From Apostichopus parvimensis (lineage: Eukaryota; Echinodermata; Holothuroidea; Aspidochirotida; Stichopodidae), in contig KN884993.1 in NCBI GenBank assembly GCA_000934455.1, positions 37,602 to 101,601 of the forward strand: a stretch of 64,000 bases of DNA, read 5' to 3'. This document shows positions 5,601 to 53,424 of this stretch, in pieces. Under the pieces are notes generated by a model. The model worked only from the letters and a program-made list of their open reading frames with translations, ran no database searches and had not been told where the DNA came from. The translations under genes were made by a program, and so were the position numbers. Each line of letters begins with the position of its first letter. Position 1 is the first letter of the stretch.

Positions 5601-8600
5601 AAATTGTAGACAAAAAATAATTAGGTTTCATGCTAACTCTTCATACAGAAAATGTGTCGGAATTAAAAAAGGGAATATAATCAGTCTTGTTTTGTTACCA
5701 TTAAAAAAACAATTAAAAGGAAACATCAGAGGTGAAAAGTGGGAATGAAAGCTTGCTTTCTGTTACCATTTGGCAATTTGGAACAAAAAGTCAAAAACAA
5801 ATTCATGAAGTATATAAATATCAGCCCAGTCACCTCCGTGTATCTCGATATTCAAGTCCACACTGTCCTTCAGGCAATCTGTGGTTTCATGGATACAAAG
5901 AAGGGGGTGGGGGTGGGGGATGAGGATATTCCAGAAAGCATTAACCATCGTGATTTATTCTCAAACGGAAAATATCAATATAGCTATCAACAAACCCAAA
6001 AAATTAGGCTTCACAGAATAAATTAATTTGGAAAAGCATTCGTATAGCTAGGTGAATAAATCCTCAACGCTAAGTGATATTTTTTGCTGACTAACATTTC
6101 CCTTTTGTAAGTAAAACTTCTGCTGCGTCATCTTGGCATCTTCTGTTTTTCCCCCGCTAATCAAAGGAAGGACGGGCGTATCAGGTTCTTGCCATCGGTG
6201 GGAGTACCATCAGGGGGTCCGTTATATGCCGGAATTTTCAAATTTACATTGTTAGGCCTGTTTTCGCTTGTGAGGACATAACATGTTCAACCAAATCTGC
6301 TAGATTATACTCTGAAATTCCCAGCCATGAAAAGTTTGATGGAAACCCCTATCCGATATAAATCTCTGCAGTGTGATAGAATTTGCATTTTGAAAGACAA
6401 TGTCTCCTCGATGGCCGACTTCTGAAAGTGTTTTGGTTTATTAATATAGGATAGCACGGTGAGGGTGACATTAAAAATATGAAATTCACAATACTTCTCT
6501 CTGATTGGTTGGGTCTAAGTTTCACAAAAGAGATTAACAACAAAAAAATAATAATTTCTTTGCATATCAGCAATTATTTACAATTTCTGGGGAAGGTTTT
6601 ACTGTTCCAAATAAATAAACAATTTAAGTACTTATTTAGCTTGTCTGGTCTAGCAATTTGTAAGTATTGACTGATGGTCACACTGAAACCATACATTCTA
6701 TTCACAACTCTTAATCAGAATGTAGGGAAGCCTTTGAGAAAATAGACATACAACTTGTTACAAGACAAACTTTGCTCAGAGTAGCACTAACACCTAACCA
6801 GGCAAATTTTATCAGGCAGTATTTTACTAAATTACGATACATATGATTATAGGAAATGACATCCCAAAACTTTATTGAAAATTATGCTATATCACCACTG
6901 ACATGTCACACTAATTGAGGTCATTCATCCCTAACAACTCTGCTCAGCCCTTTTCTGTTGATATGAATATTCAATATTATGTTAATATAATTTATTAACT
7001 TATGCAAATATTCGCTGCATATCTAGATGCTCAGACAAAGTAGTACAAAGGATGTAATAAATAATTATGCATGTTTCAAAACAGGTCAGAAACAAATATG
7101 ACTCACTTCTCTCTGAAGAAGAAAAGACTACTAGGCAAAGAAGACATTGGTCGTAGGTCCAGTGGTGTAACCGAAAAAGGATAAACAGAAGTGAAAGAAA
7201 AACCGTTTGAAGTTTTTTTCTGAATGGCTTTGACCTATTGGATACTTGCCCATTCCATTTTATCCCCTACCCATTTTTCATTACCCCCCCCCCCTCCTCC
7301 TTGCTTTAAGATTTTATGATTTCAAGCAGAAGCTAAGACTTACTTCCTTTAATTCCTTAGATGTGGAATTATTTAAAGGATGACTCATCCAGATGGCCGT
7401 CCTCCCCAGAATACAGCAGCTACGCACAGGTCTGTCTGAAAAGTTATAATTCTTTCACTTTTTTTGTCAAAATTGTGGCTTTAATATATTGCGCTTTCTT
7501 TGTTTTCTTCTTCTTGATATTGCATCCTTAAAATTCAGTTCGAACAGCTTCAGAAACGCGGTGGTGTGGTACAGTATTTTCCACCATTTTTTTTCCCATA
7601 ATTTTTTTGGTCTTTTCACTGTAACAATTACAAATCAAATGTTAATAGCCAAAACTTCCGATCACTGTGTTGTTGACAAACTCAAGTTCAAAAAGAAAAA
7701 AGAAATGAATGGTAAAATTGATAATAATAATAATTTTGAAAAATATTATATTATTAATTTTGATTTTGCAAGTCAACAAGAGTCTGTTACAATGAAAATG
7801 AGTAATATTAAGTTATTTTGACAATATTATTTGATCATACAAGCAAGCAATGCTAAGAAGACACAACACAAAACTGTAACAAGTGGGTGAAACTATTTAT
7901 ACAAAGAGAAAAAGTGATACTAGTTTAGGCTGCGTTAAGGAGATCCTGTAGATTGGATGGATGGTATCATTTAGGCTGGATTAAAGTGATAGTATAGATT
8001 GGATGGATGGTATCATTTAGGCTGGATTAAAGTGATAGTATAGATTGGGTGGATGGTATCATTCAGGCTGGATTAAAGAGATCCTGTAGATTGGATGGAT
8101 GGTATCATTTAGGCTGGATTAAAGAGATCCTGTAGATTGGGTGGATGGTATCATTTAGGCTGGATTAAAGAGATCCTGTAGATTGGATGGATGGTATCAT
8201 TTAGGCTGGATTAAAGTGATACTATAGATTGGATGGATGGTATCATTTAGGCTGGATTAAAGAGATCCTGTAGATTGGATGGATGGTATCATTTAGGCTG
8301 GATTAAAGAGATCCTGTAGATTGGATGGATGGTATCATTTAGGCTGGATTAAAGAGATCATTTGAGGGAAGCTGAGGGGTAGCAATGCTGTAAGCACAGA
8401 GAAAGGTTTCATTTGGGGCTGGGTTAAATGGACCATTGAATCTCTAGGTAAAGGAATAATTTAGACTGGGTTAAAATGATCATTTTAGGCCTGGTTTAAT
8501 TGAGAATATGGATTTGACTCCTTTCAGTTTGGGTTTGTTGTCAATCTTGCTTTTTAATTGCACTCTGATAGAAGGGCATTTGGGGGGTAATCAATTTGAT

Positions 8601-11600
8601 ATCTCTACACACATTTTAACTAAAATCTAGGAATATTGTACTACTTCAAACTTGATTAAACCATGGAGGTAAACAGATTAAACATGCCACATTCATCAGA
8701 TCCAGAAACTACCATTAAGCTATAAATAGAAATCCATCATGTGACTCTCTCACTATCATGGGGATGCCAGTGTGAAGTGTCCTAATTATACCTGAAGAGG
8801 CGGACCACATTTTTGTGGTTTCCTGCATATAGAAGAACTGTGTTGTTATAAGGTACACACATCATGGCACTGCTTGTAACAGGATGCAGTGCACACGTGA
8901 AGTATTCTCTAAGTACTTCCTTCACACATACCTGAATGTCTCACATTCGACCCTGATCGGGATACTACGATAGATTGGGTTCATTCGCTCGCGCTCAAGA
9001 CTGAACAAGGACACTTCCTCCAGATCTAACATCGTTAACCATTTTCAACAACGAAAAAGAACAAACTAAATGTTGGACAATTTAAACCGGCATGCAATGG
9101 AAAATGAAATATCAAAATCGCTTTCCGGGATTAGCCCTTTTTTCAGTGTCTTGCTTTTCGGGGTCAAGGCATGTCAGCGGGTACAAAAGAATTCACAACA
9201 GTCATTTAATATCGTCTGCTGCCCCCATTTATGCTCTGGTAGCTTGGTCATGGTTTGGGTTCAATTTGGGGTAGGTGGGGGTGAAGGGGAGGTGGGCAGG
9301 GGAAGGGACAAGCAGCCCTCCCCTGCTCTGCCGTCATCAAGTCATCGAATGAAAACTTTGTTTTTTTTTCGCATGCATTAATCAGATCGTACCTAACATT
9401 TTGTTTTAATGGCTACGCTGCCTTTTATAAAACACTTTCCACTATCCATTTGTTATTTTGACCACTGATGCAATTTAAAGTTTGAAAAACTCCTCTGTTG
9501 GGTACATTTAACTTTGTCAAAATTTGAAGGGAAAAAAAATAGTTATAATTATTATTTTTTTAAATTTAATTTGCAATTGTGATGGCTTTGCTCTAAACAT
9601 GAAATGCATGGTGTCATATCATATTTTGCTACGTAAACCCCACCCTGCCCCTGGACTTGCACATTTTCTGTTCAGCCTTGTGTTCCTTGCATTGCCATCT
9701 GCATAGACAAAGATAATCTGCTAAATTGTTTATTAACCAGTAGGATAATCAACATATCTGTCAGTTTTACAAATAATACATATCTAATTTCTGTAAACAT
9801 TACCTTCCTTGACTCCACTCCATTCCCCCAAAATCTTAGCGATACATGGAGCAAAATAATGTTGAGACATTGAGCATTTAAATAGATGATGACTTTATTT
9901 ATTAATGCCCCTCTCCCTCAAAGCTAACAATATTTATAATTTTTAACACTTCCATGAAAAAGAATATATTTTCATATTAAAATCTCTTGTTTTTGCGATA
10001 TTACATAATCAGTCGTTTTAGAGAGACATCTATCTTCCCTTTTTTTTTTTTAACTTGTATGTGTTTAATTTCAAATCTCTCACTTTTTTTTTCCCCCTCC
10101 CCAGAATCATCAGAGTCTAGCTTGCTACCCGAGGCCACCAAAGCTACAGGCTGGTATGGTGACCCAGCCACAGCTGGCACAGTCTACTATGTTCCCATCC
10201 AACTTAGTTTACAACCCGTTGCCTCAGATGACGGTGATGGCGCAACCGCAGTTTTTACCAAGTCCTCGTAAGTGTCACCCCAGTAAAAATTGTTACCAAT
10301 GTGAATGACCTTTGACCTTGAAAAGTAGTAAAAAAGTATCATTTTGTGGATTCCTTCCTGGGGGGAAAGTAGGGGATACGTACCTGCGCCGAGAATGTGC
10401 AGGATCAGTACTTACCAAGGAGAGAGATAGGGTTAGATTTTTTTTGTTTGCCATTACCCAGGAGGACACGGAATGGGGGAAGGCTGCCCTGTGATTAAGT
10501 AAAAATGCATCTTTGTAGTTTGGGGCAGGCAGCACGGTACGGTTATATGCTCATGCAGCACAGTACGGTTATATCCTCATGCCGCACAGTACGGTTATAT
10601 CCTCATTTTGCACGGTCTGGTTATATCTCCATGCCGCACGGTATGGTTATATCCTCATTGGTTAAACCCAGAACTTGTCGTCTTTTAAACCACTCCTTAC
10701 ACCTACCCCACTCGGTGAAGTAACCTGCACTTCAAAAGCATCAAAGTATCGCATCATATTTATCTGCGAAACCTTCCCGGTTGCCACGGTGACAATTGGT
10801 CAGACACGAAAGAAATCGTTTATAGACGCAAAAAGTTAGCTCTCTTCTGCTCTGTAGAACTGAACAAATTTGGGGTACGGTGGAGAGGGGGAGGGGGGAA
10901 ATGTCTTTAATTTGACGTTCAGAAGCTTTAAAAAAAATACTGTTTTTCTTGATTGCTTTTTCTCTCCCTTTTCTTAGTTCCTATGATGCCTACATTTCCT
11001 CTAATGGCCCCACACTTTATACATAACCAGGTAAGTATAATACTGTATTCCAAATGAGACAACATCCTACAACATAGCAGTTTGTTTTCTCACGGAAATT
11101 GCTGTTTGTGAAAGACCTTGCCCGAGAAAACAAACTGTTGCACACACACCCTCCCTTACATATTTCTATGATAAAAGTAAACCAGATCGTTCAAAGGTGT
11201 AGTATGTTCTTAAGTAAACATTGCGTTTGTTTCACTTGCAACATTTGAATAAAGGTGTGAAAAACTTGGAAACAGCAGTTAATCACTTTCTGTCACACTA
11301 AGTCTTGAAAGGGACAATGTTAATGGTGCAATAATTTGCTAGATATATTAAAATGGCCACAATTGAACTCAGGTTGGTAGTTGTGAAGTTCATCCAATCC
11401 TAAAAGAATCAGTGGTGTAAAGGGTTATGTACTAGAAAAGTTCAGAAGCAATCAAAGCCCCTGTCAACATTGCTCTCATTGGGACTATAAAGTGACCCCA
11501 GAATTGTAGTGATGTCAACACAGGATTGAGACAGGGGGGTGGGGAGGGGGAGACGGGGTGGGAAGGGGGAGACAGGATTAAGACCACTTTTCACAAGCAT

Positions 11601-14600
11601 TGAAATTGCTGGAAATTAAATTGGGAATTTAATTTTTTTTTTTTTTTTTTCATTTTATCGTAGAATACTTCAGAAACTCTACCAGTCTGTAGGGATTTCA
11701 AGTCTGGCAACTGTAAACGACCAAACTGCAAGTACGCACACGTCGTTGAAGGTAAGCAACGTGGACCTGGTTCATATCTGAGATTTCAATAATAATAATA
11801 TGTTCTTTTGTTTTAGTCTTTTGAGGACTCTTGCCATTACCCTCTCTCCACATATTTTTATGCGTAAGAGTAAATTTTTAAAAAGTGTACAGCGAAGAGC
11901 GAGGCCACAGATTGTTGAGTGGGAGGTCGACACCCGAGAGCTTTCTTACAGTTTGAGCCACGAAGAAGCAGGTTTTTCCTTTTTTTTTCTTATTTATTTA
12001 TTTTTAAATATTGTTAAATGCACTAGCGTAAGTCTAGCGCAGTTGTTGCTCAGGTATGTGAATTCCGTCCCTACGGCAGAAACAGACACATTGCCTGTCG
12101 GAGAGCTGTTCTATCGCTCTGGGTGGTAAGTATGAGCCGTGTGATGGGAGCGAACGAGATCCTGACATTTTAGAAAAAGTTACCTTTGAAATATCATCGA
12201 ACGGTCCATTTTTCGTAAAGAAGTTGTATAAGACAAGCCACACATCATGGCTGTTTTAAGTAAGCAGTCACATGTGGTGAATTAAGAGGATTTAATATAG
12301 ACAAGAGTTTAGCTTAATTTTCAAACAAATTTAGGCCACTCTATGTAGGTTCACGATAGCGTCCCAGAGTTCTGCTACAGGTACTCAGTACCGGGAGAAT
12401 GGTGATCCACAGAAAATCAGTCCAAATTTGAATTATCTGTTGATATGAACCGGAGTGGAATAGTGGCTGATCCATCTCGAAGTACCTTAGGTGATCATCT
12501 TAGCTAACGATCACTTTAAGTTTAAACTAGGGGAGGGATAAAACTGTTTTAGGATTTATCTTGAAAGGGAAACTCGATGAGTTACTCCATTCACTGCCTC
12601 GAGCTATTATAGCGATGGACCTCCAGAAATAAAGCAACATGAAGTAACCCCAACTGAACAGAGAGATATTATAAAGATGTTCTTTTTCCCTAAAAGATGT
12701 CCTAGTTGTAGGAATCGTGTAAAATTTAACAAAAATTTTTCCTTTTTTCTTTTTTCATATATAATTTTTTGGGGTCATTAGTGTGGTGTTCTTTTAATAG
12801 AAGCGTAGGCATAAGGCACACAAATACGGTACACACATGATGATGTGCGGATGATGATGGTGGTCGGTGGACTATGTAATATATATCTTTTCAAACACTC
12901 TCTCCTCTCACCAAACCATTCACTAATCAATTCATCACCTCCAGATTATGTGGAAATAACCGACGGAAAAGTCACAGTGTGTCGCTATGCCGTTCAAAAC
13001 CGTTGCACGAGGCCGCGTTGTAAGTTCTACCATCCGCCCACGACACCCGTAGCTATGGTGAATTCCATCCCCTCTATGCCAACGCCCGGGGTCACCAATG
13101 CTTGACAGAAGAGGGACGATAAGGAACAAAAAAAAAAAGAGGTCTCCCTCGCCAAAACGATGGCATGAACGAGACCTGTTATTTTCAACCCGTTGCATTC
13201 CATAGAGGTGTCATCCTCTCTCTGGTTATTTTGCTAATTTTTTTTTTTTTTGGTCACAGAGAGAAGAGGATGTTCACTGGTTGTACTGCCGTATGTCAAG
13301 AAGCAGTCTGTGTACTGTTTTGATCTTTGATTGTTTTTTTTTTCGGTTTTTTTTCTTTTTCTCCATTTTATGATTAATTTTTTTTCTATGTAGGAAACTG
13401 CTGTGAAGTTATAAAATGATACAGATGTTTGTACATTACTATGTGGTGCTATACACAAATGGCATACACATATATTTTTTTTTTGTACTCGAGACCACAA
13501 GAGCTCCTCCCTCTGTCATTCCCTCGTTTTCGTACGGATGTGGTCCGTCATTTTGCACCATGTTTTCTTCTCGTTTTTTCGTGGAGGTTTTTACCATGAT
13601 CTTTTGGAGGGTGCCTAAACCTTTTGGTGCAACTTTTGACGAGACCTAGTCATAGTGAGGTCGTTGGGTCTTTTTAGTGTTTGCCAACGTGTCAGACGTG
13701 TGGTCCAGTACCAGTACCTTAACAAACAACAAAAAGAAGATAAACGTTAGAAAAAAAAGGGGGTAGGGGAAAAAAACACATTGATGAACAAAAAGAAAAA
13801 AAACACACAGAAAATGTGGGGAAAAAAAAAACAATAATATGTCTTAAGAGTACCTATGAGTTCTTCCAATTCACCATTGTTTTCCAAGTGCAATTTCATG
13901 TCGAGTGTGGTGTGAAGAAAGGGCCATTGAGTAACAACAAGTTGAGTGTCTTCGGTTTTTCGTTAAGACTTAATTAGTGGTGGGTGGGGGGGGGGGAGGC
14001 ATCCTGCCGTTGGGTACTATATTCACTTTGAAAGGAAGTTCCTGTGGAGTGACTTCCAACTGGGACAGTATAATATTTCTCCTTTACCCAAGTTGAAGCT
14101 TACGTAAGAGAACAGTCATCTTGTGAATTGACTCTTGAATCTCGAGACAGATCCCCGAGGCTCATTCTCCTCGGTGGGGGCATTCGCAATTGGGATGATG
14201 GAATCAATAGTGCCAGTGGAGGAGTTATTTTTAACAAAGTGCCAGTAATTGTGTGTGAAAGCAGCCAAGGCAAATAATGGAGTACTTTACCCTAACCTGA
14301 TAGGTGTACTCACTGACAAAACAAGGGGTTTCCCCTTAATGTACCCTTACTGTTACAAGAGGGTACCCTCTCAAAACATGGGGGGTGGGGGTGGAGAGGG
14401 ATGGGTGAGAAGCACTGGATGCACCATCATAAACTCAAAACTTGATCAACCATTTTCTGGTGAATAATACTCTCTGACATGGAAGATGTGGCTGGTCATG
14501 AAAAAAAATGACAGAATGTAGGAGGACAAATTTCTTCATCTCCTCTAGTACCTGGCAATAAAACCAGGGACACAAAGGCACTGGAAATACTCATTTAACA

Positions 14601-17600
14601 AAACAATGTGTGAAGGAAGGAAGGAAAGGGGGGGGGGGAGGGGGTTAGTTAATCTAACAAGGATGAATATTTCCTCAACTTTCATGGTGGCTGCAGTGTT
14701 GATGATGAAGAAGTGGGCTTTATGAATGAGTGGCGGCTAAGCCGCCTCCATTGAGTGGATATGTGTGTGACTTAAAAAAAAACAAAAAAACCATCAGCAG
14801 CTGACGCAGCCGGAAAAGCCCTGCTGCGGGGTATGCGCCCTTATTAAGAGGATACCATCCTGAAAGGATACGATGGAAGCCTCCATCGATATGTGGAGGG
14901 TGGGGGGGGGACGGGGGAAGGAACAAATGTGTATACTACATACTATAATTATTTTATCTTTGGATTTTTGTAGCATTTTTACTTCTGGGGTTAAACAGGG
15001 TTTAACAGATAGCTGTTTGTTCTTGTGAGTCTTTGTGTAGTTATCGATGGATGCAAAGAATGAGGACAGTTTCCAGTATCTTTTTTTTTTTTTTTAAGTA
15101 CCAAATATTTTGGTATGCCTTATGTGGTTGGTAGAGCGAAACCACATCGTTTTGTTGGGATATGTGTACATGGCAGCTCGAATAAGAAGGAAAAAAAGAC
15201 ACCTTTTTTTTTAATTTTTTTTTTTTTTTCCTATTGTGGTAGAAATGAGCCAGCAACTTAAATGTGTGCTCAAGAAACGTCTTAAGTGATTAACCAAAGA
15301 CTTAAAACCAAGTACAAGTAAGGTAGAAATCATTTTCAAAGATATTTTCTTTATAATGTCATTAGTATATCTTTTTTTTCCTTCTTCTTCTTCTCCGTGT
15401 TTAACTCGTGTTTTCTTTTTCTCATTCTCTCGTGTCTATGGTGAATATTATCAACAATTCACCCTAAATTTGTCTTCTTTTTTCTTCTTCTTTTGAGTCT
15501 TTATTTCTCTTTCGCCATCTATTTATTTCTTTGTTTCTGACTAGGGATTATTTTGATTTCCGAATTTGTATATGTTAGAATTTTAACCCAATTTAGTGCA
15601 AAATTTGTCAGTCATTTCAACAGACTGGATCAATCTTTGTATTCCATCCTTCCAAGTTTGCCTTTTTTTTCTTCTTTTTTCTTTTTTTCTTTATCACTTT
15701 TTTTTTTTTATTACTATTATTATAATTATTATTACGATCACTATTATTATTTTGGTCTTGTAGTAGTCGTTTCCTCTTGTGGATATTAACGAGACGAGTT
15801 GCGTCATGTTATGCCTCTAGTTGTTTGACGTTGGCGATATATTTTTTTTCTTATTTGTTTTCTCTCTCTGACTCACTTTCTCTGTTACCTTTTTGGTCTT
15901 TTTTTCTGTCTTTTTGACTAAAATAGGCAGAATATGAGCCTCTGACCAGTGTACTAATTTCTGAAATATTAGTTGTAGCAGCTGTAACTCCCAATTGGAG
16001 TCTCTTAGCTTTTTAGAGTAATAATATTATTAAGGGAAATTTTAGTATAAAATATCGTGTGCATTTTTTTCCTCTTTTTTTTTTTTTACTTAGTTGCAGC
16101 TGATAGGGATTATAGGCAGTGGTGGTTGTAAATTTTGTTTTTAATAATTCTGAAGGCCAAATATGGTGCTAACTGAAATATCAAACATGAAATATGGTTC
16201 TTAGCAAAGTAGGCGATGTTAGTGATAAAATTAAGAGTTTGAGCAAAGGAAACCTCAGAACGTAAACTACTAGGTCATATAAGTTTGGGGCAAAGGTACC
16301 AACGTAATATGTCACATAGTGGGTAATAGAAATTGGCAGAAAGCTACGATTGATAGAAAGAGAGGGTGGGTGGGCTATAGTGGGGGTTAGAGGAGGCAGG
16401 CAAGCAGGAGAGGGGGCACTTTTAAAATTGTAAATCAAATCAGTCAGAGAATAAATTCAGTGTTTTAGTAAGGAATATAAACTATCAAAATTTAAACATG
16501 CCATTTTTTTAGTTGATGGTGCAAAAAAGGTATTGTCCCCCTGGTATTATCCCAAATTGTCAAAATTTTAATTTTGAAGAAGCACTGTTTTAAAGGTACT
16601 TTCATTTTACGAATCTGATGTCGTTTATTAGTTCTAGAGGAAGAAGATGTTTTGCTCTTTAATTTTTATCAAGAGAGAAGAAGCAGAGATAATCTGATAG
16701 TTATTTTTATTCCACACCTATTTTTTATTTTTTTTTGGTTTTATTTTTTTTTGGTCTTAGTTAGCTGTGGATATTATTCAAGAGTTTCATCAGTACTTTA
16801 AGTATTTCTGATATTTTTAAACTAACCTAACAGAACTGTTGTTCTGTTTCTTTTCTATTAATACCTTTTATTAAATTGTAAGTTATCCCAACAAAGCTAT
16901 GTGGTGGCCGAGGTTACTTGTCACTTATCATACCAAAGGATCGATTTATTATCATCATCATCATTATTATCATCATTATTATCGTTATTGTTGTTACTAC
17001 TACTGTTATTAATATCATTATCAACGATTATTGTATTTGGAAAAAAGAAAAGAGAAAGAAAAAAAAAACCATGATAACCGTAACAAGACACAATGTTTGC
17101 AGCTGAATGTCCCAAGAAAAAAAACAGCTTCATACTAAGTAAAACATTGCAGATATATCTATCAACATATACGTAAGAACAGCAAGAGAGAAACAAGTGT
17201 TACTCGATAGAAGGAAAATGCAGCGAAATATGCTTGAAAATAAAATAAATAGTAATATTGATGTATTTTTATTAAAGTTGCTTACAGCGGTATAACCGGG
17301 TCTCTTTATTTTAAGAACACCATTCATTTGAACCAAGAAAATAAGTATTGAAAGTTTGGCTTCATTTTGTGGAAGATTCAACAGGCCGTCAGTGAGCGAG
17401 TTTAATTTCTGCGGACTTTGTTTATAATTAAAATGGTACGTTCCTCTCCCTTGGTATAGACCGCTTTAAGGAAATTATCCTGATTTGAGTTGCCTTAGCC
17501 CATCATCTCACCCCCACCCCCCAACCCTCCTAATTCCACATCTAGAAAGTAGAAATGGTAGCTGCCTAGTTGATATTGCTGATTTTTTCCTCCCTTTCAG

Positions 17601-20021
17601 AGAGAAAAAAGTAGTTGGTCTATCCAACAAACACCTTTCAAAACCCACTTGCTATATACACTTCCTTCCCATTTTTTTTTCATTTTTTTAAAAATAAAAC
17701 TTTTTGCATGTTGAAATAAAAAAGAGAAAAATCTCTCATTCTTTATCAGGTTACTCTTTTCTGCAGCAATGGTCATGAAAGTGCATGTTATTTGCTAAAA
17801 TTAATCATTATTTTCTCAAACAGGGCATGTAGGCGCTCCTTTCTTCTGTTTTTTTGTCTTCGACTATACACCATGGCATCATTTCTATGTGATTTTATCT
17901 AGCAAATTAATCTGCTAGAAATACATAGCAGCAAATCTGCTAGGTGGAAGCATCAGTTATTTAGTACCTTGCAAAGCTGACTTTGTGTCTTGGGGCCAAA
18001 TCAGTGATCTTCCATTTTGTAAGGGCAGGTATCAAAGAGTTATTAAAAAATTACCTGGGTAAAGTCAAGATACGAAACGTCAAGACTCATTTTGATCTCA
18101 GAATCAGCCAAAATTCTAAACCAGCACAAGACGAGAAATGCCTGTGTGAGAATTTCGATCTTGGTATTAAACACTCGTGTTATTCCTGTCAACTTAAAAA
18201 ACTTAAAAGAACTCTGATGTTCTTTCTTGATGATGAGAATCAAATAGCTTTTAATTTTAATGGGAATTGAGTTTATCTATGACGGTAACATAATCAAATC
18301 ATGAAATGGTACAAGATGTTGCCTTTAAAACTGTTCAGGGATAAACGGATGGAAGATCGCTGATTTTCACCGGCTTAGACAAGTCAATGCTATCCACAGT
18401 GTGCATGTGTAGACATATATATATATGTATATATATGTATACATTTAAAAGGTGTGCTTAATCAGGAACAGGTGGCAGCGCCTTCATCATCATCATCATC
18501 CAACGAAGCATTCTTTAACTATCTTGCTGCCCGCCTCTGTCTTGATGAAGACCACCCACCCACACATGCACACACACTACTACATATTGCAGCTAGCTAG
18601 CTAGACATGCAGCTATCAGTTAGCATGTTGCTGAGCCAGCCGCTAGCAGCCATATCAAGAGCATGTTGTAACATTTGTATATTCACGCAGTATTGTCATG
18701 ACTTTTGAGATTCGCAATATTCTGACAGTCGTCGATTTTCTCGTATGCAAAATGTTTAGTATGTATTTTTTTTTTTCGGTCCTGTTGAAATGCATTTTCC
18801 CCCCCCCCCCCCTCTCTTTCTCTCTCATAAAGCTTGCTTGGCAGCACCGTGGATTTGAAAAGGTCGTCAGTATTGCACCCAATTATGTTAGAAATCCAGG
18901 GGGGGGGGGAGCGGGAAACGTTTGGCAAATGGTTTAATCATAAACATTGGACCCGAAGAATAAGTCCTTTACCCTCCATGAGAGCACATTGTGTAATAAA
19001 TTTCAGCTTTATAGTTTGTTATAATTTGGGACAATACTGAAGACCTTAAAAGCAAGCTTTTGTTTTTTTCCCAGCTATTTAACATTTTTCCCTTTTTTTT
19101 TCAAGATATCCCACTTGGTGGTTCACCCACTACTCACCTAACAATAACTGTGCATTTTTCCCTCTTCAGTTTTTTTTCCTTTTTTTTGAAGTTCAAATAA
19201 AAACCATATCGAATGTGTCACCTGCTTATGGAGAATATGCACAAGGAACATGTGGGATACTTGCTGTAGTGGTATTATGCACCCAATTGCCCCCTCCATC
19301 TCCCCCCCCCCCCCCCCCGCCCCCTTTACCATATTGCAGAATATAATAGCAAGTGGCATATTATAACGATAAATGTACCATTCATCTACTGGGGACATTT
19401 TACACGCCCAAAAAGAGTTCATCTTTTCTTCCCCAATCCCCCCATTTGCTCCTCCCTCACTCTACCACTCCCCCACCCCCCTGCCCCTAAACCATCATTC
19501 TCACAGTTTCCTACAAATAGAACATTTGTAGTTGAATGCCGTGTTCAAATTTTACATTGCATGCTATGTTGCTTCCTTGTCAATTCAACTATTTGCGCTG
19601 ACATGTATAATGGTTTGCGACATATTTTTTTTATTTGGGCTGATATGCAAGCATTCCTACCTAGCATACTACCATGCTTGCACAGCCTGGGTGGCAATGT
19701 CTTTAATTCTATCTGATTTTCAGCTTTTATGTTTTTGTTTTCCTCTATTTTTCTCTCACTCTATCTCTCTCTCATGTTTTTTTTTTTGTAGTGACTTTTA
19801 AAAAGAAAAGAAAAGAAAAGATACAAGAGTTGTTTTCTCTTCTTCACCTCACAGACAAAGTTGAAATTGTGGAGGGAAAAGTCACGCTTTGCCGAGATGC
19901 AGCCAAAGGGAAATGCATGCGAACCAACTGCAAATACTACCACGTCCCCATCACTGCAACCAACGGCATCCTTCCCGCTACCGCATCCGCAAACGCAACG
20001 GCTGCTAGTGCTACCTTTTAG
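2559..20021 (+). CDS. muscleblind-like tandem CCCH zinc-finger RNA-binding protein, 3' part (exons listed separately)
   Basis: Proteins of this type bind pre-mRNA and mRNA through paired CCCH fingers and regulate splicing, localisation and stability. In-window exons are 7361-7429, 10105-10267, 10978-11030 and 11664-11751, followed by either 12945-13105 or 19855-20021; 2559-2609 is a possible earlier exon. All joins keep one open frame (phases 0, 0, 1, 0, 1). The protein shows a short polar segment, a 72-residue Pro/Met/Gln-rich linker, finger A (C-X7-C-X4-C-X3-H) and, 15 residues later, finger B (C-X7-C-X4-C-X3-H) preceded by a VEI..GKVT-C motif. The close spacing and that motif match the finger pairs of muscleblind (for example V-NG-V-AC and NTVTVC before MBNL1 fingers 2 and 4). 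Finger A differs from MBNL fingers 1 and 3, which are C-X7-C-X6-C-X3-H. ZC3H10-like CCCH proteins are the main alternative, but their finger spacing fits less well. The N-terminal fingers and start codon are outside the window. Confidence 0.7.
2610..7360 (+). other. intron or intergenic sequence, no gene seen
   Basis: AT-rich sequence with many A and T homopolymers (for example near 2695-2720, 4190-4205 and 4910-4925). I found no phase-compatible exon with good splice sites. The open frames of 60-128 codons here are low-complexity shadows. Confidence 0.5.
7361..7429 (+). CDS. CCCH gene, internal exon (69 nt)
   Basis: The acceptor TTCCTTTAATTCCTTAG precedes an open segment of 23 codons starting MWNYLKDD and ending PEYSSYAQ, followed by donor GTCTGT. 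It is phase 0 at both ends, so it joins in frame to the exon at 10105. The segment is polar and Trp/Tyr/Ser-containing with no named domain. It could be a cassette exon because its length is a multiple of three. I cannot exclude that its ATG serves as an internal start in some transcripts. Confidence 0.6.
7430..10104 (+). other. intron with a 46-bp minisatellite
   Basis: Intron between the exons at 7361 and 10105. The only structured element I see is the 46-bp array at 7923-8358 with decayed copies trailing to about 8500. The rest is AT-rich, with a G-rich patch at 9265-9305. Confidence 0.55.
7923..8358. repeat. 46-bp minisatellite, 9 copies
   Basis: The block containing ATGGTATCATTTAGGCTGG recurs at 7961, 8007, 8053, 8099, 8145, 8191, 8237, 8283 and 8329, exactly 46 bases apart. 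Two spacer variants occur, AGAGATCCTGTA and AGTGATAGTATA (or ..ACTATA), arranged in short blocks. This implies amplification of already diverged units. Decayed relatives (GGCTGGGTTAAA, GACTGGGTTAAAA) continue to about 8500. Confidence 0.95.
10105..10267 (+). CDS. CCCH gene, Pro/Met/Gln-rich linker exon
   Basis: A long pyrimidine tract ending CCCCAG precedes the exon and GTAAGT follows it. The frame that matches the neighbours gives 54 codons plus one base, including QPQLAQSTMFPSNLVYNPLP and MAQPQFLPSP. This is low-complexity Pro/Gln/Met sequence of the kind that separates finger pairs in muscleblind proteins. The longer open frame across this region, starting upstream in the intron, reads a different phase and does not join to the next exon. 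Confidence 0.75.
10529..10660. repeat. 26-bp tandem repeat, 5 copies, in an intron
   Basis: GGTTATAT recurs at 10541, 10567, 10593, 10619 and 10645, each 26 bases apart, within units of the form GCACRGTAYGGTTATATCCTCATG. It lies in the intron between the two linker exons. Confidence 0.92.
10978..11030 (+). CDS. CCCH gene, second linker exon (53 nt)
   Basis: The acceptor TTTTCTTAG precedes it and the donor GTAAGT follows. With the single base carried from the previous exon it encodes 18 codons reading LPMMPTFPLMAPHFIHNQ and ends in phase 0. It continues the Pro/Met-rich linker directly before the finger exon. The perfect donor and the phase match on both sides support it. Confidence 0.75.
11664..11751 (+). 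CDS. CCCH gene, zinc finger A exon
   Basis: A poly-T tract and TCGTAG precede it; GTAAGC follows. The 88 bases encode NTSETLPVC.. and one complete finger, CRDFKSGNC-KRPNC-KYAH (C-X7-C-X4-C-X3-H), then VVE and one extra base (phase 1). That base joins to AT at 12945 or AC at 19855 to make Asp in both cases. RPNCKYAH resembles the RNA-contacting end of muscleblind and ZC3H10 fingers. This is the last exon common to both predicted isoforms. Confidence 0.85.
11752..12944 (+). other. intron
   Basis: Intron between finger A and terminal exon a. No conserved element is recognised. A 109-codon open frame at 11800-12129 begins 49 bases after the donor, has no family resemblance, and is rejected as a gene. 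Confidence 0.55.
12945..13105 (+). CDS. CCCH gene, alternative terminal exon a with zinc finger B
   Basis: The acceptor TCATCACCTCCAG precedes it. With the carried G it encodes DYVEITDGKVTV, then finger CRYAVQNRC-TRPRC-KFYH (C-X7-C-X4-C-X3-H), PP, and a tail ending PGVTNA before TGA at 13103-13105. The VEI..GKVTVC lead and CKFYHPP end match the second finger of muscleblind pairs. It shares 19 of 34 residues with terminal exon b at 19855 and uses the same splice phase. The two therefore look like duplicated, mutually exclusive last exons. A stop and a U-rich 3' UTR follow. Confidence 0.85.
13106..19791 (+). other. 3' UTR of isoform a, then intron before terminal exon b
   Basis: After the TGA at 13105 the sequence is strongly T-rich, with ATT triplet runs at 15710-15760 and 16940-17010, as expected of a long animal 3' UTR. 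Candidate poly(A) signals AATAAA are at 14557, 16450, 17239, 17244, 17693 and 17715; which one is used cannot be told. For isoform b this whole stretch is intron. Long poly-C and poly-G runs occur near 18800, 18900 and 19300. Confidence 0.5.
19792..19854 (+). CDS. optional 21-codon extension of terminal exon b (upstream alternative acceptor)
   Basis: A very strong acceptor (a CT-rich tract, then about eleven T and GTAG ending at 19791) would start the exon 63 bases earlier than the site at 19854. With the carried G it reads V-TFKKKRKEKIQELFSLLHLT in frame into DKVEIVEGKV, without a stop. The insert carries a KKKRKEK basic cluster, a plausible nuclear localisation or RNA-binding patch. Part of it, (AAAAG)n, is simple sequence. 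Whether this site is used is unknown. Confidence 0.4.
19855..20021 (+). CDS. CCCH gene, alternative terminal exon b with zinc finger B
   Basis: The acceptor TTTTCTCTTCTTCACCTCACAG precedes it. With the carried G it encodes DKVEIVEGKVTL, finger CRDAAKGKC-MRTNC-KYYH (C-X7-C-X4-C-X3-H), VP, then an Ala/Thr-rich tail ending SATF before TAG at 20019-20021. The KGKC..NCKYYH core is closer to canonical muscleblind fingers (KGRC..CKYFH) than exon a. The phase is identical to exon a, so the choice of exon swaps both the finger and the C-terminus. I prefer the acceptor at 19853-19854, but the one at 19791 is equally in frame. Confidence 0.85.
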
Positions 20022-23000
20022 CAGTATTCATCAATGGCTTGCAAAAAAACCCCGCCACTCATATGCCCTAGATAAATCTGTTAGTATGTTGTGGTGTCTG
20101 TATGTGTGTGTCTGGATAGACTTTCAAAGAAATATTGAAAAAATTAAAATTAAAAAAAAAAAAATCCTCGGCAGAGGTTTTTTTTTTTTTTTTTTTAATT
20201 GTTTACTTCAAGCCACAAGTCTTTATTTACCGATGCCAGATCCCCCAAAACACACCCCAATAATTAAAATAAAAAAAAAAAAAATTGGGAAATAAAGTCA
20301 TGCCGTAGGACGGTGAACAAGAGAAAACAAAATCTGGTACTTGTTAAAGTTTTTAAATTTTGGAAGGGGACAGAATGGAATGCAAAGGAGTAAATTGTTG
20401 GGAGATTGGGAATGGCATCTCTGAGAATAAGACTTGTGGCGGCTTGATCTCTATGCTTCTGAGGATCACCTTGCAAGACACATCTCATGCTAGTAATTGT
20501 CAAGTCAAGCTTGGTATTACATATCTGCAACTGGCTTATTTCTTCATAATCCTACTTTTTTGATTGAATACTGCGATGGAATGTATCTATCTCTCTCTTT
20601 CCTTTATCACCCCTCTCTTTTTTTTCACTTTTTTCTTTTTTTGTTGGAAATTTTTTTTCCCACCCCTTTTGTCCCATTGGTCGAGTTGGTACCAAGATGT
20701 TGCATATTCATGTTCTAAAATTAACATGATATAAATAATTATAAAAAAAAGTTGTGTGTTTTAAGCCTATGCCATTGTTGATGTACTAGAGGAGTTGTAG
20801 TACCCATGTTGACTGTTCCATTTATTCAATGGGGGGGGGGGACTTTTTTTAAAAAGTTTATTCTTATTAAACACTTTGTTCATCTATTTCTACATCAAAA
20901 ATTTCTTGAACAATTTTTAACACAAATTTAGGTAAAGAGCATGTGAATATTTTCTTTGTTTCTTCCACCCTTTTCTTGTTGTAACCGTGGAACTTGAGAT
21001 GTCAAATTTTAAAAGCATGTATAATAGTTACCTTTATGTAGTACAGACAGTTTTCCAATCACTGAATATTTCCAATTCTTAAACAACTCCAAACAAAAAC
21101 AAAAAATGAAAAAAAAAAACGAGAAAGATAACAGAATTTAAAAAAAAAAAAAAATTAAAAAATTCTTGAACTGCTGAAATTATTTCTAAAAATGCAGTAC
21201 TTTTTCTTAAAAGAGTGATTCTCTTAAAACTTGCCAAAATTGTAAGGCACATATTTTCTTAAATTGTTCAAACTTAACCATACAGAGAAGTTTGCATTTC
21301 ATTTATATCCATAGTGGTTCGTTAAAAACCCAAGTCATATGCAAAGAGAAAAAAAAAAATGGCAGTCGTGAACACAAAAGGGCTGACACCATGCACGCAA
21401 CACCTTCATGAAATTCACCCCCCCCCACCCCCCCCTGGTCTTGATGCACTTGACTTCCATTTATAGAGAACTAAACAAGCCTACGCAGCAAAAGGGCCTT
21501 AATTTGTCGTCTTGATATTAAAACATGAAAACTCATCTGAAATTTGATTATGAACTGAAATAAGCAGCCATTTTACCTTTATTCTTAGTACAATATAGAT
21601 TATGTACTCAGTTATAATATTCCTTGTTTATTTTTTTATATTTGTTTGGTGATCAATCTGAAATTAGTCCATACTCACTTCTTCCAAAATTTTGTTCTCT
21701 TTAAGTACCTTCTTTTTTTTCTTCATGATTTTTTTTTCATTTAGTACTTCAATTAGACTAACAACAATCTATTATAGCAGTAGGACAGGAGATGGGGTGG
21801 GGGCAGGAGGTTGATTTCTGCAGACCTATTGACTGTTTTCTCATAAAAACCAAATGAAAAATTAATGCACCTTTGCAATCTGCCCGGGGGAGGGGGGGGG
21901 TGGGATTACATTTGTAACCGTCTTTTACTTTCATGAAATATTGTCAAATTTGTTGGCACCTTGAAATTTTTAATCAACGTGCATCTCCTATGATCAGTCG
22001 TCTTTTAGTGATGTGGTAGGGGGTCGTTGCAAGTTGTGTCTGGTATACCCCTGAGTATTCTTGACCAGCCACGGGATCGTCTCTTATTTTGAATCATTCA
22101 CAAAGTTTCTTAGATCTGTTTGATCATAACGACATCACCATTCTGCTTGCTCCCTGCTTGCAAAAGGTTAGCACCGGTTTTGCTTCTTTACAAAGTTTCT
22201 TACAATGCTTACAGAATAGGGGGAAAATATTACACACTTTTTGACCCAACTATACCCTCATCGCACCTACTACCAAGACCCCTCACCCCACCCCCCCCTC
22301 CCGCCCTCTCTCTCTACTTCAAGAAAACAAATGTTCAGAGGGTCATAGACTCAACCCAAATGTCAGATTGTGTGGTAGCAATACAGAATAATGCAACTCA
22401 CTGTCGACCGATGAACGCTGCTAATGTCTCTTGGTGTTGCTTCAGAGGACTAAAGTCTGAGCAAGACTATTTGAGAATCTTTCAATATTTCAATCTCACA
22501 GAACTATTTCACATCAGCACCAGATCAAAAGGCCTCTGGTTGTAGGAAGAAAGGAAACTAATTTTTGTCCAAGGGTGACATTTCACAGAATCCATCATTT
22601 TGCACTTAAATAGATTGCTGACATTTTGACAAAAATAATTTGGGATGATTTTGTCTTGCTGCTAGCATGTTATGACCTTTAACTCTAAAAGCCTGCTGCT
22701 ATATGGTAAATGGTTTGTGTAGTAGTCTCACTAGTCTCACTAGTAGTCTCACTAGTCCAGTCACTTTATTCAATTGATGAATCTTAGCTGTTTAAAGGGT
22801 CATTTCCCAAAATCAGAAAATGGTATTAAAATATAACCTGCACTGATAGCAGTGATATTTGACAGCCTACAACATACCAAACTTAATTTGTGTGCCTAAT
22901 GGTAATCCTGTAATCTCTGCTAGCTGCCACATCGGTTGACGTCTTTTTCTGCCAAAATATCAGGAAAGCTTTTTAAAAAAAGAAAAGTCACAGTTGTTGT

Positions 23001-24007: not shown

Positions 24008-24192
24008 NNNNNNNNNNNNNNNNNNNNNNNNNNNNNNNNNNNNNNNNNNNNNNNNNNNNNNNNNNNNNNNNNNNNNNNNNNNNNNNNNNNNNNNNNNNNN
24101 NNNNNNNNNNNNNNNNNNNNNNNNNNNNNNNNNNNNNNNNNNNNNNNNNNNNNNNNNNNNNNNNNNNNNNNNNNNNNNNNNNNNNNNNNNNN
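24008..24192. other. assembly gap (185 N)
   Basis: Unsequenced bases. Any reading frame across it is meaningless. Confidence 1.
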
Positions 24193-35300: not shown

Positions 35301-38300
35301 GATAGTAAATGGGCTCCAAGATTAGAATGCTTTTACAGGGGTAAAAGTTCCTCGTAATTGGGATCCACAAAAAGCCTTTGCGAGGGGTGTAAGCATGGTG
35401 CAGACAAGCAGTGTGAATGAAGGCGACATGCAAAGATTACCTACAAGGCAATCATCGCAGGGGTATATCCAGCCTTGCCCAAAATTAACAGAGGACGCTG
35501 CCCTACCCGGTCCTAACTGATTCCACAAAACTCTTTGTCTGCGGATCACAACGGTACCAAGAGTCAATTACTAGTAGTAAATATANNNNNNNNNNNNNNN
35601 NNNNNNNNNNNNNNNNNNNNNNNNNNNNNNNNNNNNNNNNNNNNNNNNNNNNNNNNNNNNNNNNNNNNNNNNNNNNNNNNNNNNNCTTGACTTGCCTTTT
35701 CTAAAGCATGTTGGGTTTTAGTTTGACTAAACTGCACAAGTAGACTCATGAACTAGTCATTCACTCAGCACGTCAGAATGCAAAGTCACCGATTTTTCAC
35801 ATGACTGTGACTTTAATTCGGGGATCGTTCAAAAGTACCACATCGCTGACATTTGGACCGTTATGACAGCGCCCTCTGTTGAGATGCTTGAGATGAAGTC
35901 TTTTATAAAAACGGGAATAACCATCAGGAGTGCAATATCGTAAGTCGGGAAGGTAAAGATAGAAGAAGCATCATTATTATTATATATAAAACAAAATCAT
36001 CATACTATGAAAGTGGAGAGCTATCGTGCAATGTGGTGCAGTTTTCAAAATTGAGAGGAATATGAACAAACTATACCCACAAAGTGCAAGAAGAGAGTTC
36101 TATTTATAGTGTTGTAAAATTGCAAAGCCAAAGTTTGAAATTTACTGATGCTATGTTTTCCAATAAGGTCTCCCGCTTACTTCACTTTATCATCACAAAT
36201 ATGAATGTCTTCTAGCGATGCATATGCAGAAAGCCCAATGAATATTCATGACTGGTAAAGGTGACATGGTGTTTATTAGCATGTGAACATTCTAAATGGT
36301 CTTGGCTTCAAACTTTCACAACTACTACTTTGGAAAACTTCATTTCATGCACTTCCAATGACATACCATGAAGGCATACTCACAGAAAGGGCTATAAACC
36401 CAAGGCACAGATGGCAAATTGCTGTGACGATACACTCGATATTTACCTCCTCAATGATCCTGTATTTGTTCCCAACCCAAATAACCCCTCCAAGTTTATG
36501 AAGCTTTTATTTAAAACACCGGCAGTCCTTTGAATCGTGTAATTGATCTTTACACAATCCAAAATTTGGAATTCATGAAGCAATATTAAAGATGGGAGAC
36601 GAAGGCCGCTCTGACAGGCTTTCAATGGACGTGGGCATACAATGAACAATGCAGGCATGCCCTTAATATCTAGCATGCTGTGAACCTTGTATGCAATCTT
36701 GGCATGCACTTTGAAACTGCACCCAATGCTCCGTTGCCCTGGTAACATTGTATATATACTCCCTTCCAATTGGTCATTCATCCAGAAAGGTTGCTAGCAT
36801 GCTTTGTTACCATGCAGTAAGTGCCATGCATATACAACTATACCAGATTTAAGTATTTTATAAAAATCCTCCTGTTTCATCCTTTAAAGTGGAATGAAAG
36901 AATGTTGACTCATCCTATGTAAAACTATTTTTACTTTAATTTATTTGATTCTGTAACAAGTCCCAAATCCATATTTTGATGTGCAGTTTAATTCAGCAAT
37001 TGACATTAAAGTGAGTTCAGAGATCTTCTACAACAACTACACAGTCCTCGGTCCGGCCAGGGTGACCAATTATCTACGGAGGGGTTAGTCTTCTGATTGG
37101 AGATACTAAACTCATTCAGTTAAAAAATTATTAATACCAAGGGTAGAACTTGATAAATTCAGAGTTGCTCTACCAAAAGTCCAACTTTAAGCTTACCCCA
37201 TCCTGCCATCTCATGATTTAATGAGTTTTCTCATGATTCTCATGATTTCTCATTTGATATGGTCTCTTTGACTTTACGGGAGGAAGAAACCACTGCCAAA
37301 GGAAACCCAAAGTATTATCTATTGGTGTCAAACCTTAGGGCAACACTTATCATTCTGAGGTTATTTGAGACTTATAGATCTTACCAGAAAGATTCCCATA
37401 TGAAAGTAAACTTGAATGAGATTACAGTTTGGTAAATAAATACCAAAAGGTTTTACGACCCAAGGCCAAAACTTTATACCAACTTACAAGTTTGTGGATA
37501 AACCTTTTTAAAATTACTTACATTCCCGGTCATGCCCACTGAGTATGTTTGTGTCACCTGGATTATTTAGGATGCAGCTACATCTCGAGTCTCTACCTAC
37601 GACGGCTCTCGCTGGCTATCACAATGCAAGAGCGCCCCCAATGGTTTATAATTAATTACCGTCAACCATCGACAAACTCACGGGGACAATATTGCTGGAG
37701 TCGGAATGATCTATCCCACCGTGCTAGATAAATGCCATGCTCTTTATGATAAACCTACATCGACATGGAAGGGTGATGGAGGATGTGGGGGGGGGGGACG
37801 GGTTGGGAGGGGGTTGGTTAGGGTTATTTATCATGCCACGGACGCCTACCAGAGGGTACAATGGTATCGGAACCATGCAATGATCCATTACTGGATGATT
37901 TGGCCACCTTGGTGTGCCCATTGAGCCATGAGCCAAATAGGGTTTTCAGCAGCGGGGACGATGGAGGTGGCGTAACTCTGAGAGACGACATGTTAGGAGA
38001 AGAAGATGGGAACAAAGATGGGAACAAAGATAATCATCTCTCTTGTCACTCATATTTCACCCCAACTCTTTTTCTTTCCTGTTTATTTCCTTTTTTCTTT
38101 CTTTATTAGTGTCATTATTTTTTATTTTTTTTATTTTTATTTTTAGATAGAAAACTGAATACTAAATCATGGAAGCAGCAGCAGGGTTGTTAACTTTGGT
38201 TTAATACTAAACAAATATCCATAATAATGATTATAATTGCAATTATTGTCAAGATTGACCTTCTTAATAGGTAAACTATTTTGACGTATCTGCTGAAGGA

Positions 38301-44300: not shown

Positions 44301-47300
44301 CGTTTTCTTGGTCCACAAAATGCTTTAAATGATGTAAAGAGTCCAATGAAACGTATATTTTAAGGCTGCATGATACTTCAGTTCAACATCCATACCTAAC
44401 TAGAGACATTGCCATAATGTTACATGGGTATATATAGGAATATATGTGATTTTCCAAAACACCAATCAAAAGTTCACAATTCTGCAGTCACATGGTCACA
44501 GGTTTGATTTTAGATTTCTCCCCACCCCTCCACCCCCCTCTCTGAAGCCTCCACCACCCATTAACATCAAAAAAGCTTATCCAGCACTGTATCGTTGTCT
44601 ATTGGCGACATGCAATTAGTTTGCAATCTGACATCGAAAGTGAGATCATCATTGCTGCCTGCTGTTGTTTATAACTAATCTCTAATTTGGGTAAACAATG
44701 ATACCCACTTGATTTTTCTTCTTTGTCTATTATCAAGCCATCGAAACAGAAAACAAAGGACAGGATTTAATAAAAAAGGTTGCATAAAGGACAGTGAAAC
44801 ACTGATAGATGGAAACAACACACCCGAATCTAAAACAGGCTGAAGGCACAAAAATATACCATGCATAACTCTCAACATGGACTCTGGGGGGAATTTTGAG
44901 GGGGACTGATGGCTTCTGATTTTGAGGAGCACTAGAGAACCAGTCAAGTTGATTTTCCTTAATTAAATTTGCCCGAGTAAAACAACAGAGCAGCCTTGAC
45001 AATCTAAGACTTGAAATCTAAACAAACACAAAGTGACACACTCCACTTTGGTCCTGAAAACCTGTTATCTGATTAAAAAAAAACGGAACCAGAAGTTACT
45101 GACATTATCAAATTAAACCTGACATCAAATGGCATGTTTGTTTTGTATCCAAGGGATAGTATGCGAAGTCGCATATCTCTTCATGTTTGATAAGTCTCAG
45201 GTCAGCAATAGGTCCTTTTGAAATTTCTTGTAGTTCATTTTTTTTTTTTTACCTTCTTTTCTTTGCAAAACCACCCCTTAAAAGAAAGGCAGAGAGAGGA
45301 AAGGGATTAGGGGAAGGGATTAGGGGAAGGGATTAGGGGAAGGGTTATGGGGAAGGGATTAGGGTAAGGATTAGGGGAAGGGAAGAGTTTAGGGGAAGGG
45401 ATCAGGGGAAGAGTTTAGGGAAGGGTTCAGGGAAAGGGTTTAAGGGAAGGGTTTAGGGGAATGGTTTAGAGGAATGGTTTAGGGGAAGGGTTTAGGGGAA
45501 GGGTTTAGGGGAAGGGATTAGGGGAATGTTTTAGGGGAAGGGTTAAGGGGGAGGGTTTAGGGGAAGGGATTTGGGGAGGGTTTAGGGGAAGGGGAGGGTT
45601 TAGGGGAAGGGGAGAGTTTAGGGGAAGGGAAGTCTGTAGGAGAAGGGAAGGGTTTAGGGGAAGGGAAGGGTTTAGGGGAAGGGAAAGGTTTAGGGGAAGG
45701 GAAACGTTTAGGTGAAAGGAAGGGTTTAGAGGAGTGGGGAATGGAAGGAAGGGCTGCAGCCATTTTAAAAATAAAGGATCTGATCATCAGTGTAATGTTA
45801 CTTCCTTACAGCCGGTGACAAAGTTAATGGCACAAAAGAGTAGGCACTGCTTTAACTTGTTTAACTTTAATCTAAGCAAAATGGAAACAGCTCTTTGCAG
45901 ACATAAGTAGTTTAATATTGACAGTAGCTTTTGTCATGTTTAGTATTTGATTACTTTCACAATCTATTACAATATCTTTTATCAGCATTGACTGCTCAGG
46001 TTAGACTGTGTGTGCATGAGGTACACTCAACAAAGTCACACAAGTTTTGGAAGTCTCCCTAGACTCAAGCTCAAAGAGAATGAAATGAAAAACCAATTGT
46101 TCTATCACATTGTGATGAAGGTTAAAAAATAATGGAAAGACTTCAAAGGCTGGTTTAGTATCTGTAAATTTGTAGTCTCTAAAAGCCCAACAGTTCTAAG
46201 GACAGGTTATGTTCGATGAGAATATCTATATATATATATTAGTCTGTTCAAAGTATCTCTTTCGAAATCCGGCTTTAGGAATCACAAATGACTTTGAGTT
46301 GGTTAGAATCATGTTTGATCTCTAGAGAGTAAGGCAAATATGTCACTAAAACAGAACTAGTATTGTTCGATACAGGTGACAAACGCCTACAGTGGAATTA
46401 CGACCTTCCTTACCGGTTTCGAACCTCTGGACATTCTAATGGTTAGGGTGTCCGAATTATAAGCATGAGGCCAGAGTTCTGGATTTTCCAACTCACTACG
46501 ATTTCAATTATATATATATAATATATATATATATATATTAACTTACAACTGGTTCAACTAAAAGTAATATTAAAATCAATAAATTTTTTTAACTTGAAGA
46601 GAAAGTTGGATAAAATAGGCAGTTAGTTTGACTTTGCCCTGTTAGATCTACAGAGGATTAAACTACAATAGGGTTAACTTTTAGCTATATTTATATATAT
46701 ATATATATATCTATATATATATGAACTATCTAGGTTTTAGCATAATCATGTTAGCAGTCGCTTTTCTGGCGGTGAAGAGCATTCTAAAAAAAATTTAACA
46801 GGAAATAAAACTATTAATGGACAAAGCTAGAGGAAAGGAGTACCACAGTAAGGGAAGCAGCTAGAAATATATGCTATCCATTTACAGGATGGAACTATCT
46901 ATGGAGTACCCATTGTGGGGGGATATTACAGCAGATGTACCACCCCAAGAGTAACCCAAGAAGTGCATACAACTTGAGCAGCTCCATCTAGAGATGGTGA
47001 ACAGTGAGAGGATAAGGAGACGGCAAGATCTGGGCGAGAAACGATTCTCTGAGCGGTTGTCATTCAAAAGCAAGCAAACATGTAAGAGGTGCACAGACAC
47101 AGATTACTTGACCAACATGATCCTAAAATTTTACAATGGTTTAAACCAGGGGTGGGCAACCTCTTTGAATGAATGGGCCAGCTATAAAGAGTGAAAAATT
47201 GACTGGGTAGCACCTTACCAACAACCTGCTGTAGATTTCAAACCTTTGATTCCGAGGACTTTTAAGCAATAGGTGTGTGTACTTAATCTATATTCACAAA

Positions 47301-53300: not shown

Positions 53301-53387
53301 GCAAAAATTATGTGACCATCAAATTGAAGAGTGATGACCAGTAGATAAAGTTATAATTTCATAATTGAAGTATCCAGTTTTATTTTT

Positions 53388-53424
<37 letters not shown>

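Follow-up and report, generated by a model that had tools for sequence, protein, structure and literature searches.

The stretch of DNA analyzed here, 64,000 nucleotides long and referred to as the window, contained three plus-strand exons that each encode one CCCH zinc finger, a probable linker exon upstream of them, and a minus-strand gene of the PIX type. The features, with coordinates counted from the first letter of the window, were:

10105-10267, plus strand: probable linker exon L, NHQSLACYPRPPKLQAGMVTQPQLAQSTMFPSNLVYNPLPQMTVMAQPQFLPSP, with acceptor tttttttttccccctccccag, a GTAAGT donor, an open frame, and a phase 1 end
11664-11751, plus strand: exon A, penultimate finger CRDFKSGNCKRPNCKYAH (CX7CX4CX3H), starting at 11664, or at 11674 if joined to L, with a phase 1 end
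12945-13105, plus strand: exon B, putative proximal last exon, D-YVEITDGKVTVCRYAVQNRCTRPRCKFYHPPTTPVAMVNSIPSMPTPGVTNA-stop, identified by phase, stop, and Pfam zf-CCCH_10 (38.7 bits)
14557-14562, plus strand: candidate poly(A) signal AATAAA, 1.45 kb 3' of the exon B stop, motif only
19855-20021, plus strand: exon B', putative distal last exon, D-KVEIVEGKVTLCRDAAKGKCMRTNCKYYHVPITATNGILPATASANATAASATF-stop, identified by phase, stop, and Pfam zf-CCCH_10 (39.2 bits)
20268-20296, plus strand: two candidate poly(A) signals AATAAA (20268 and 20291), ~250-270 bases 3' of the exon B' stop, motif only
about 49000-56760, minus strand: PIX (ARHGEF6/7)-type RhoGEF gene, with its DH exon near 56520-56735

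Rfam and tRNA scans of the window were empty. Minisatellite arrays were located at 7924-8359, 45301-45733, and 57454-57969, with units of 46, 13-26, and 35 bases, respectively. Two runs of N at 24008-24192 (185 bases) and 35586-35685 (100 bases) are probably assembly gaps and may hide short exons.

Exon A ended with ...CKYAHVVE and one further base, after which came gtaagc. Exon B was preceded by tcacctccag and exon B' by cttcacctcacag; in both cases, an AG acceptor lay upstream, an Asp codon (GAT or GAC) was completed, one full CX7CX4CX3H finger followed, and the frame closed with its own stop (TGA at 13105 in B, TAG at 20021 in B'). The exon ends, phases, stops, in-frame Asp, and whole CCCH finger that an earlier note on this DNA had read in B and B' were all confirmed from the sequence, as was its count of 19 of 34 residues common to both (ungapped alignment, BLASTP E = 1e-13). 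When the 64 kb window was searched in six frames on both strands for the pattern CX4-9CX4-6CX3H, only three matches were found, namely A, B, and B'. The exact 7-4-3 spacing occurred three times in the window, compared to 0-1 per shuffled window (40 dinucleotide shuffles), and B and B' each passed the Pfam zf-CCCH_10 cut-off of 27 bits alone.

The same finger-pattern scan revealed no second finger-A exon, either between B and B' or elsewhere in the 64 kb window, and its absence between B and B' is consistent with a single gene that has alternative last exons. We regard it as very unlikely that B' instead comes from another gene, a tandem duplicate, with its remaining exons elsewhere or lost. 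The 8 kb between A and B' would suit such an arrangement; however, in addition to the missing finger-A exon, no other Pfam domain was present on the plus strand between 13000 and 32800, and the acceptor phase of B' matches A exactly.

Upstream of exon A, the frame of exon L was rich in Pro, Gln, and Met, resembling the linker between the muscleblind finger pairs, and its acceptor was among the best-scoring tier of the window. As no Pfam match was found for exon L, we infer from these features that it is probably the linker exon of the same gene as A. An L-A junction at 11664 was rejected, as it produces a stop; in-frame joining is obtained only via a downstream AG, the best of which lies before 11674, ten bases inside the 11664 start, and L plus A from 11674 reads ...FLPSPQTLPVCRDF... 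into the finger. The acceptor at 11664 scores better in the window (97th percentile, compared to the 78th for 11674), yet the stop it creates with L implies that a later AG is used or that another exon lies between. Of the span 11664-11751 proposed earlier for exon A, the end and phase hold, while the start is uncertain because the linker exon joins in frame only further downstream; 11674 is the likely, though uncertain, start if A is joined to L. The swap of the last finger is independent of this question.

To which family the fingers belong was examined by comparing A+B and A+B' with PDB chains using phmmer. MBNL finger pairs were matched at 3.8e-14 by A+B and 1.1e-14 by A+B', six MBNL sequences were matched at 1e-12 to 1e-14 by both, and the strong matches among solved structures were exclusively the finger pairs of MBNL1 and MBNL2. 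The next CCCH proteins were tristetraprolin (0.05 with A+B) and ZAP (0.6 with A+B, 0.1 with A+B'), both far below MBNL among solved structures, and CCCH genes of the tristetraprolin and ZAP types were considered and rejected. The Pfam name alone was indecisive for the family, since zf-CCCH_10 is named ZAP-like. ZC3H10 was also considered; it was not among the structure matches of A+B or A+B', but we know of no solved structure of this protein.

Pairwise scores were calculated against human MBNL1 finger sequences, which were entered by hand and are consistent with those in the phmmer structure matches. Finger A was closest to the odd MBNL1 fingers, ZnF1 and ZnF3, and B and B' were mutual best matches (111), followed by MBNL1 fingers 4 and 2, the even class. 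A+B and A+B' each constitute a CCCH tandem pair of the muscleblind type, and the proposal of such a pair in the earlier note is borne out by the phmmer results. Relatives of the exons were absent from viral contigs, prokaryote genomes, and plasmids, as would be anticipated for a gene of animal origin.

The gene neighborhood fits muscleblind synteny, as supporting rather than defining evidence. The DH exon of the minus-strand PIX gene matched Pfam RhoGEF (1.8e-9) and PIX in the PDB (3e-10), and a weak ARHGEF6 match was found further along this gene. In human, ARHGEF7 is located at 13q34 and ARHGEF6 at Xq26.3 (PMC6032284), and MBNL2 and MBNL3 are located on chromosomes 13 and X (PMC13044900). 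A PIX gene in the same window, which recalls the PIX and MBNL genes sharing chromosomes 13 and X in human, speaks for a true ortholog of muscleblind.

Two features of the pair count against its assignment to a muscleblind gene. The canonical spacing is CX7CX6CX3H followed by CX7CX4CX3H; the second finger fits in both B and B', and finger A is two residues short, with CX4C instead of the CX6C of MBNL fingers 1 and 3 (CX7CX6CX3H in MBNL1; PMC9780971). The canonical second pair is contained within one exon from insects to vertebrates (Irion 2012, PMC3315501), whereas here an intron divides A from B and B'. With CX4C in finger A, what can be claimed is a muscleblind pair of diverged rather than canonical type. 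A further point against is the absence from the 64-kb window of the N-terminal pair that muscleblind genes normally carry (ZnF1/2, with a split ZnF2 exon); either the gene extends upstream of the window or its introns are very large, as in insects.

These departures bear on another reading, which is compatible with a muscleblind gene ending in B or B' and would set the age of the arrangement. It is quite possible, though short of an even call, that A+B and A+B' are the counterpart of the diverged second pair of Drosophila MblF, that is, an ancient accessory pair whose last finger was duplicated, with the canonical pair elsewhere in the gene. The pair departs from the canonical one in both its CX4C spacing and its intron split, the second pair of MblF is likewise diverged (32% identical to MBNL1; PMC3315501), and the canonical pair is absent from the window. 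However, this is a lead only, drawn from the published description of MblF.

The comparison of B with B' gave a local score of 112, compared to a maximum of 43 in 2000 shuffles. DNA similarity extended from 14 bases upstream of the exons to ~45 bases inside them, and its confinement to these 14 intron bases and ~45 exon bases points to an old duplication. Identity at codon positions 1, 2, and 3 was 23, 25, and 11 of 34, respectively (Fisher p 3e-4), with ~8.7 third-position matches expected from composition alone; dN was 0.36 and dS was saturated. This codon-position pattern indicates that the copies are old and have been kept as protein. When neutral decay to equal nucleotide identity was simulated, none of 20000 runs combined an open frame with as many as 19 matching residues, the mean being ~10. 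Judged from the sequence, the duplication is old and selection has preserved both copies as protein, which does not imply that both are in use today.

Splice sites were scored using approximate weights from general knowledge and ranked as percentiles within the window. Among all GTs of the window, the exon A donor (GAAG/gtaagc) ranked at the 99.9th percentile; the acceptor of exon B was weak (93rd percentile) and that of exon B' strong (99.6th percentile). Neither B nor B' contained a good donor by this scoring. B and B' are two terminal exons with same-phase acceptors and their own stops, the layout of alternative last exons, and they are most likely of the skipped-terminal-exon kind. The AATAAA sites near 14557 and 20291, to which the earlier note had pointed, were rejected as evidence for two 3' ends: 150 copies of the motif were counted on both strands of the window compared to ~126 expected, and sites of a motif this near its chance frequency are no evidence in themselves. 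YGCY motifs, a possible hint of self-regulation, showed no enrichment upstream of the two acceptors (0 and 1 per 200 bases).

That one copy is a relic, with only B' (or only B) used and the other silent or rare and open by chance, appears unlikely. The weak acceptor of B, the conserved pocket residues lost in it (see below), and an AATAAA as far as 1.45 kb past its stop are what a relic might look like; however, the retained protein similarity was not reproduced by the neutral-decay simulation, in which 26% of copies stayed open and 0.3% kept all Cys and His.

Taken jointly, the evidence makes it likely that the locus is the 3' part of an invertebrate muscleblind gene and that exon A is spliced to either of its duplicated terminal exons, B and B'. 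Exon A, carrying the first finger of the tandem pair, would be joined to B or to B'. Use of the near exon B would end the message early, and skipping of B would connect A with B', 8 kb downstream. Most simply, the choice would be a race between the weak near acceptor of B and the strong far acceptor of B', tipped by splicing and 3'-end factors; we pair slow splicing or a highly active 3' end at B with the short form, and skipping would yield the long form. The two predicted proteins would be identical as far as the Asp that follows finger A and would diverge from there on, with different last fingers and different short tails rich in Pro, Thr, and Ala. In a transcript retaining the intron after A, the frame reads GKQRGPGSYLRFQ to a stop (window 11752-11789, plus strand), a possible truncated third form with finger A only.

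What such a swap could do to RNA recognition was considered from the pocket of MBNL1 ZnF4, formed by M222, Y224, K226, G227, R231, K235, and Y236, with positions counted from the published numbering (PMC9780971). The equivalent residues were R, A, K, G, R, K, and Y in B' and R, A, Q, N, R, K, and F in B, which also has Tyr for Asp 223. B' retains the even-finger pocket D..KG[KR]C.R..CKY.H, and B has Y..QN in place of D..KG, so that B' resembles an ordinary even finger of muscleblind and B an altered one. Since B lacks the Lys-Gly that B' retains, altered RNA affinity or specificity is plausible, and the B and B' isoforms may plausibly differ in this respect; an altered affinity, base preference, or finger-finger contact would be most likely for the B finger. 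AlphaFold models of B and B' built from two sequences were too poor to inform (mean pLDDT 48).

It is also possible, though not what we would expect, that both last exons are used and the finger swap is neutral or minor, the differing 3'UTR (stability, localization) or the short tail being what matters and the finger being merely kept folded. Both B and B' encode intact fingers of the even class, and their 3'UTRs are unrelated, the DNA similarity stopping within the exons. In the MBNL1 ZnF3/4 structure, the main contacts to GC come from ZnF3, and ZnF4 packs on a second ZnF4; a packing rather than a reading role was proposed for ZnF4, and the even fingers of MBNL1 were proposed to be less important for base reading (PMC3103431). 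However, the equivalents of K226 and G227 differ (QN in B, KG in B'), and K226 of ZnF4 contacts RNA in simulations (PMC9780971). The specificity switch suggested earlier stands in so far as it involves a muscleblind-type pair, homologous in-phase last-finger exons with their own stops, and the retention of both as protein. The broader proposal, an old switch across a wide invertebrate group in which the last finger is picked by alternative 3'-end choice, changing the RNAs bound and regulated, is tentative and, on the sequence features described here, rather doubtful.

Several known systems resemble parts of this arrangement. The Drosophila muscleblind isoforms MblA-G differ in their C-termini (PMC13044900), the second pair of fly muscleblind is either the conserved one (exon 5) or the diverged one of MblF, and fly isoforms with one and two finger pairs rescue different splicing defects (Irion, PMC3315501). 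The fly gene is of the same family and likewise has a common N-terminal part, alternative C-terminal exons, and two second-pair versions (PMC3315501, PMC13044900); however, its alternatives are whole pairs or tails, whereas here the final finger and tail only would be exchanged, via a recognizable duplicate exon. Vertebrate MBNL1-3 have CCCH tandem pairs of the same class and provided the best structure matches, and MBNL2 and MBNL3 share their chromosomes with PIX genes, but vertebrate isoforms vary mainly 3' of the fingers, ZnF3/4 form a single exon, and fingers 1 and 3 are CX7CX6CX3H. In insect BTB zinc-finger genes such as lola, alternative exons put different fingers on a common N-terminus, changing specificity (PMC5127561); lola, however, encodes a DNA-binding BTB protein unrelated to muscleblind, for which the change in specificity has been measured. 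The mutually exclusive exons of Dscam and insect Mhc also arose by exon duplication, with one or the other copy then used (PMC1397879, PMC2257972), but those exons are internal. B and B' are terminal, and 3'-end formation therefore belongs to the choice.

In the literature searched, which covered few subscription papers, we came across no report of a duplicated terminal exon swapping only the last muscleblind finger; eukaryote annotation may already list two predicted isoforms. The earlier statement that no description was known is correct for the exact layout in this literature but not for the kind, as Drosophila MblA-G and MblF were already known (PMC3315501, PMC13044900). The exact layout thus appears new in the papers searched, and the exchange of C-terminal exons is already familiar in the muscleblind family.

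Muscleblind proteins govern splicing in muscle and nerve differentiation and are titrated in myotonic dystrophy, and how RNA recognition is divided among their individual fingers is still debated. If the proposed choice between B and B' is true, a natural isoform pair distinguished by its last finger and tail would offer a built-in experiment on the contribution of that finger, and the locus would provide an example of RNA-binding specificity determined by 3'-end choice.
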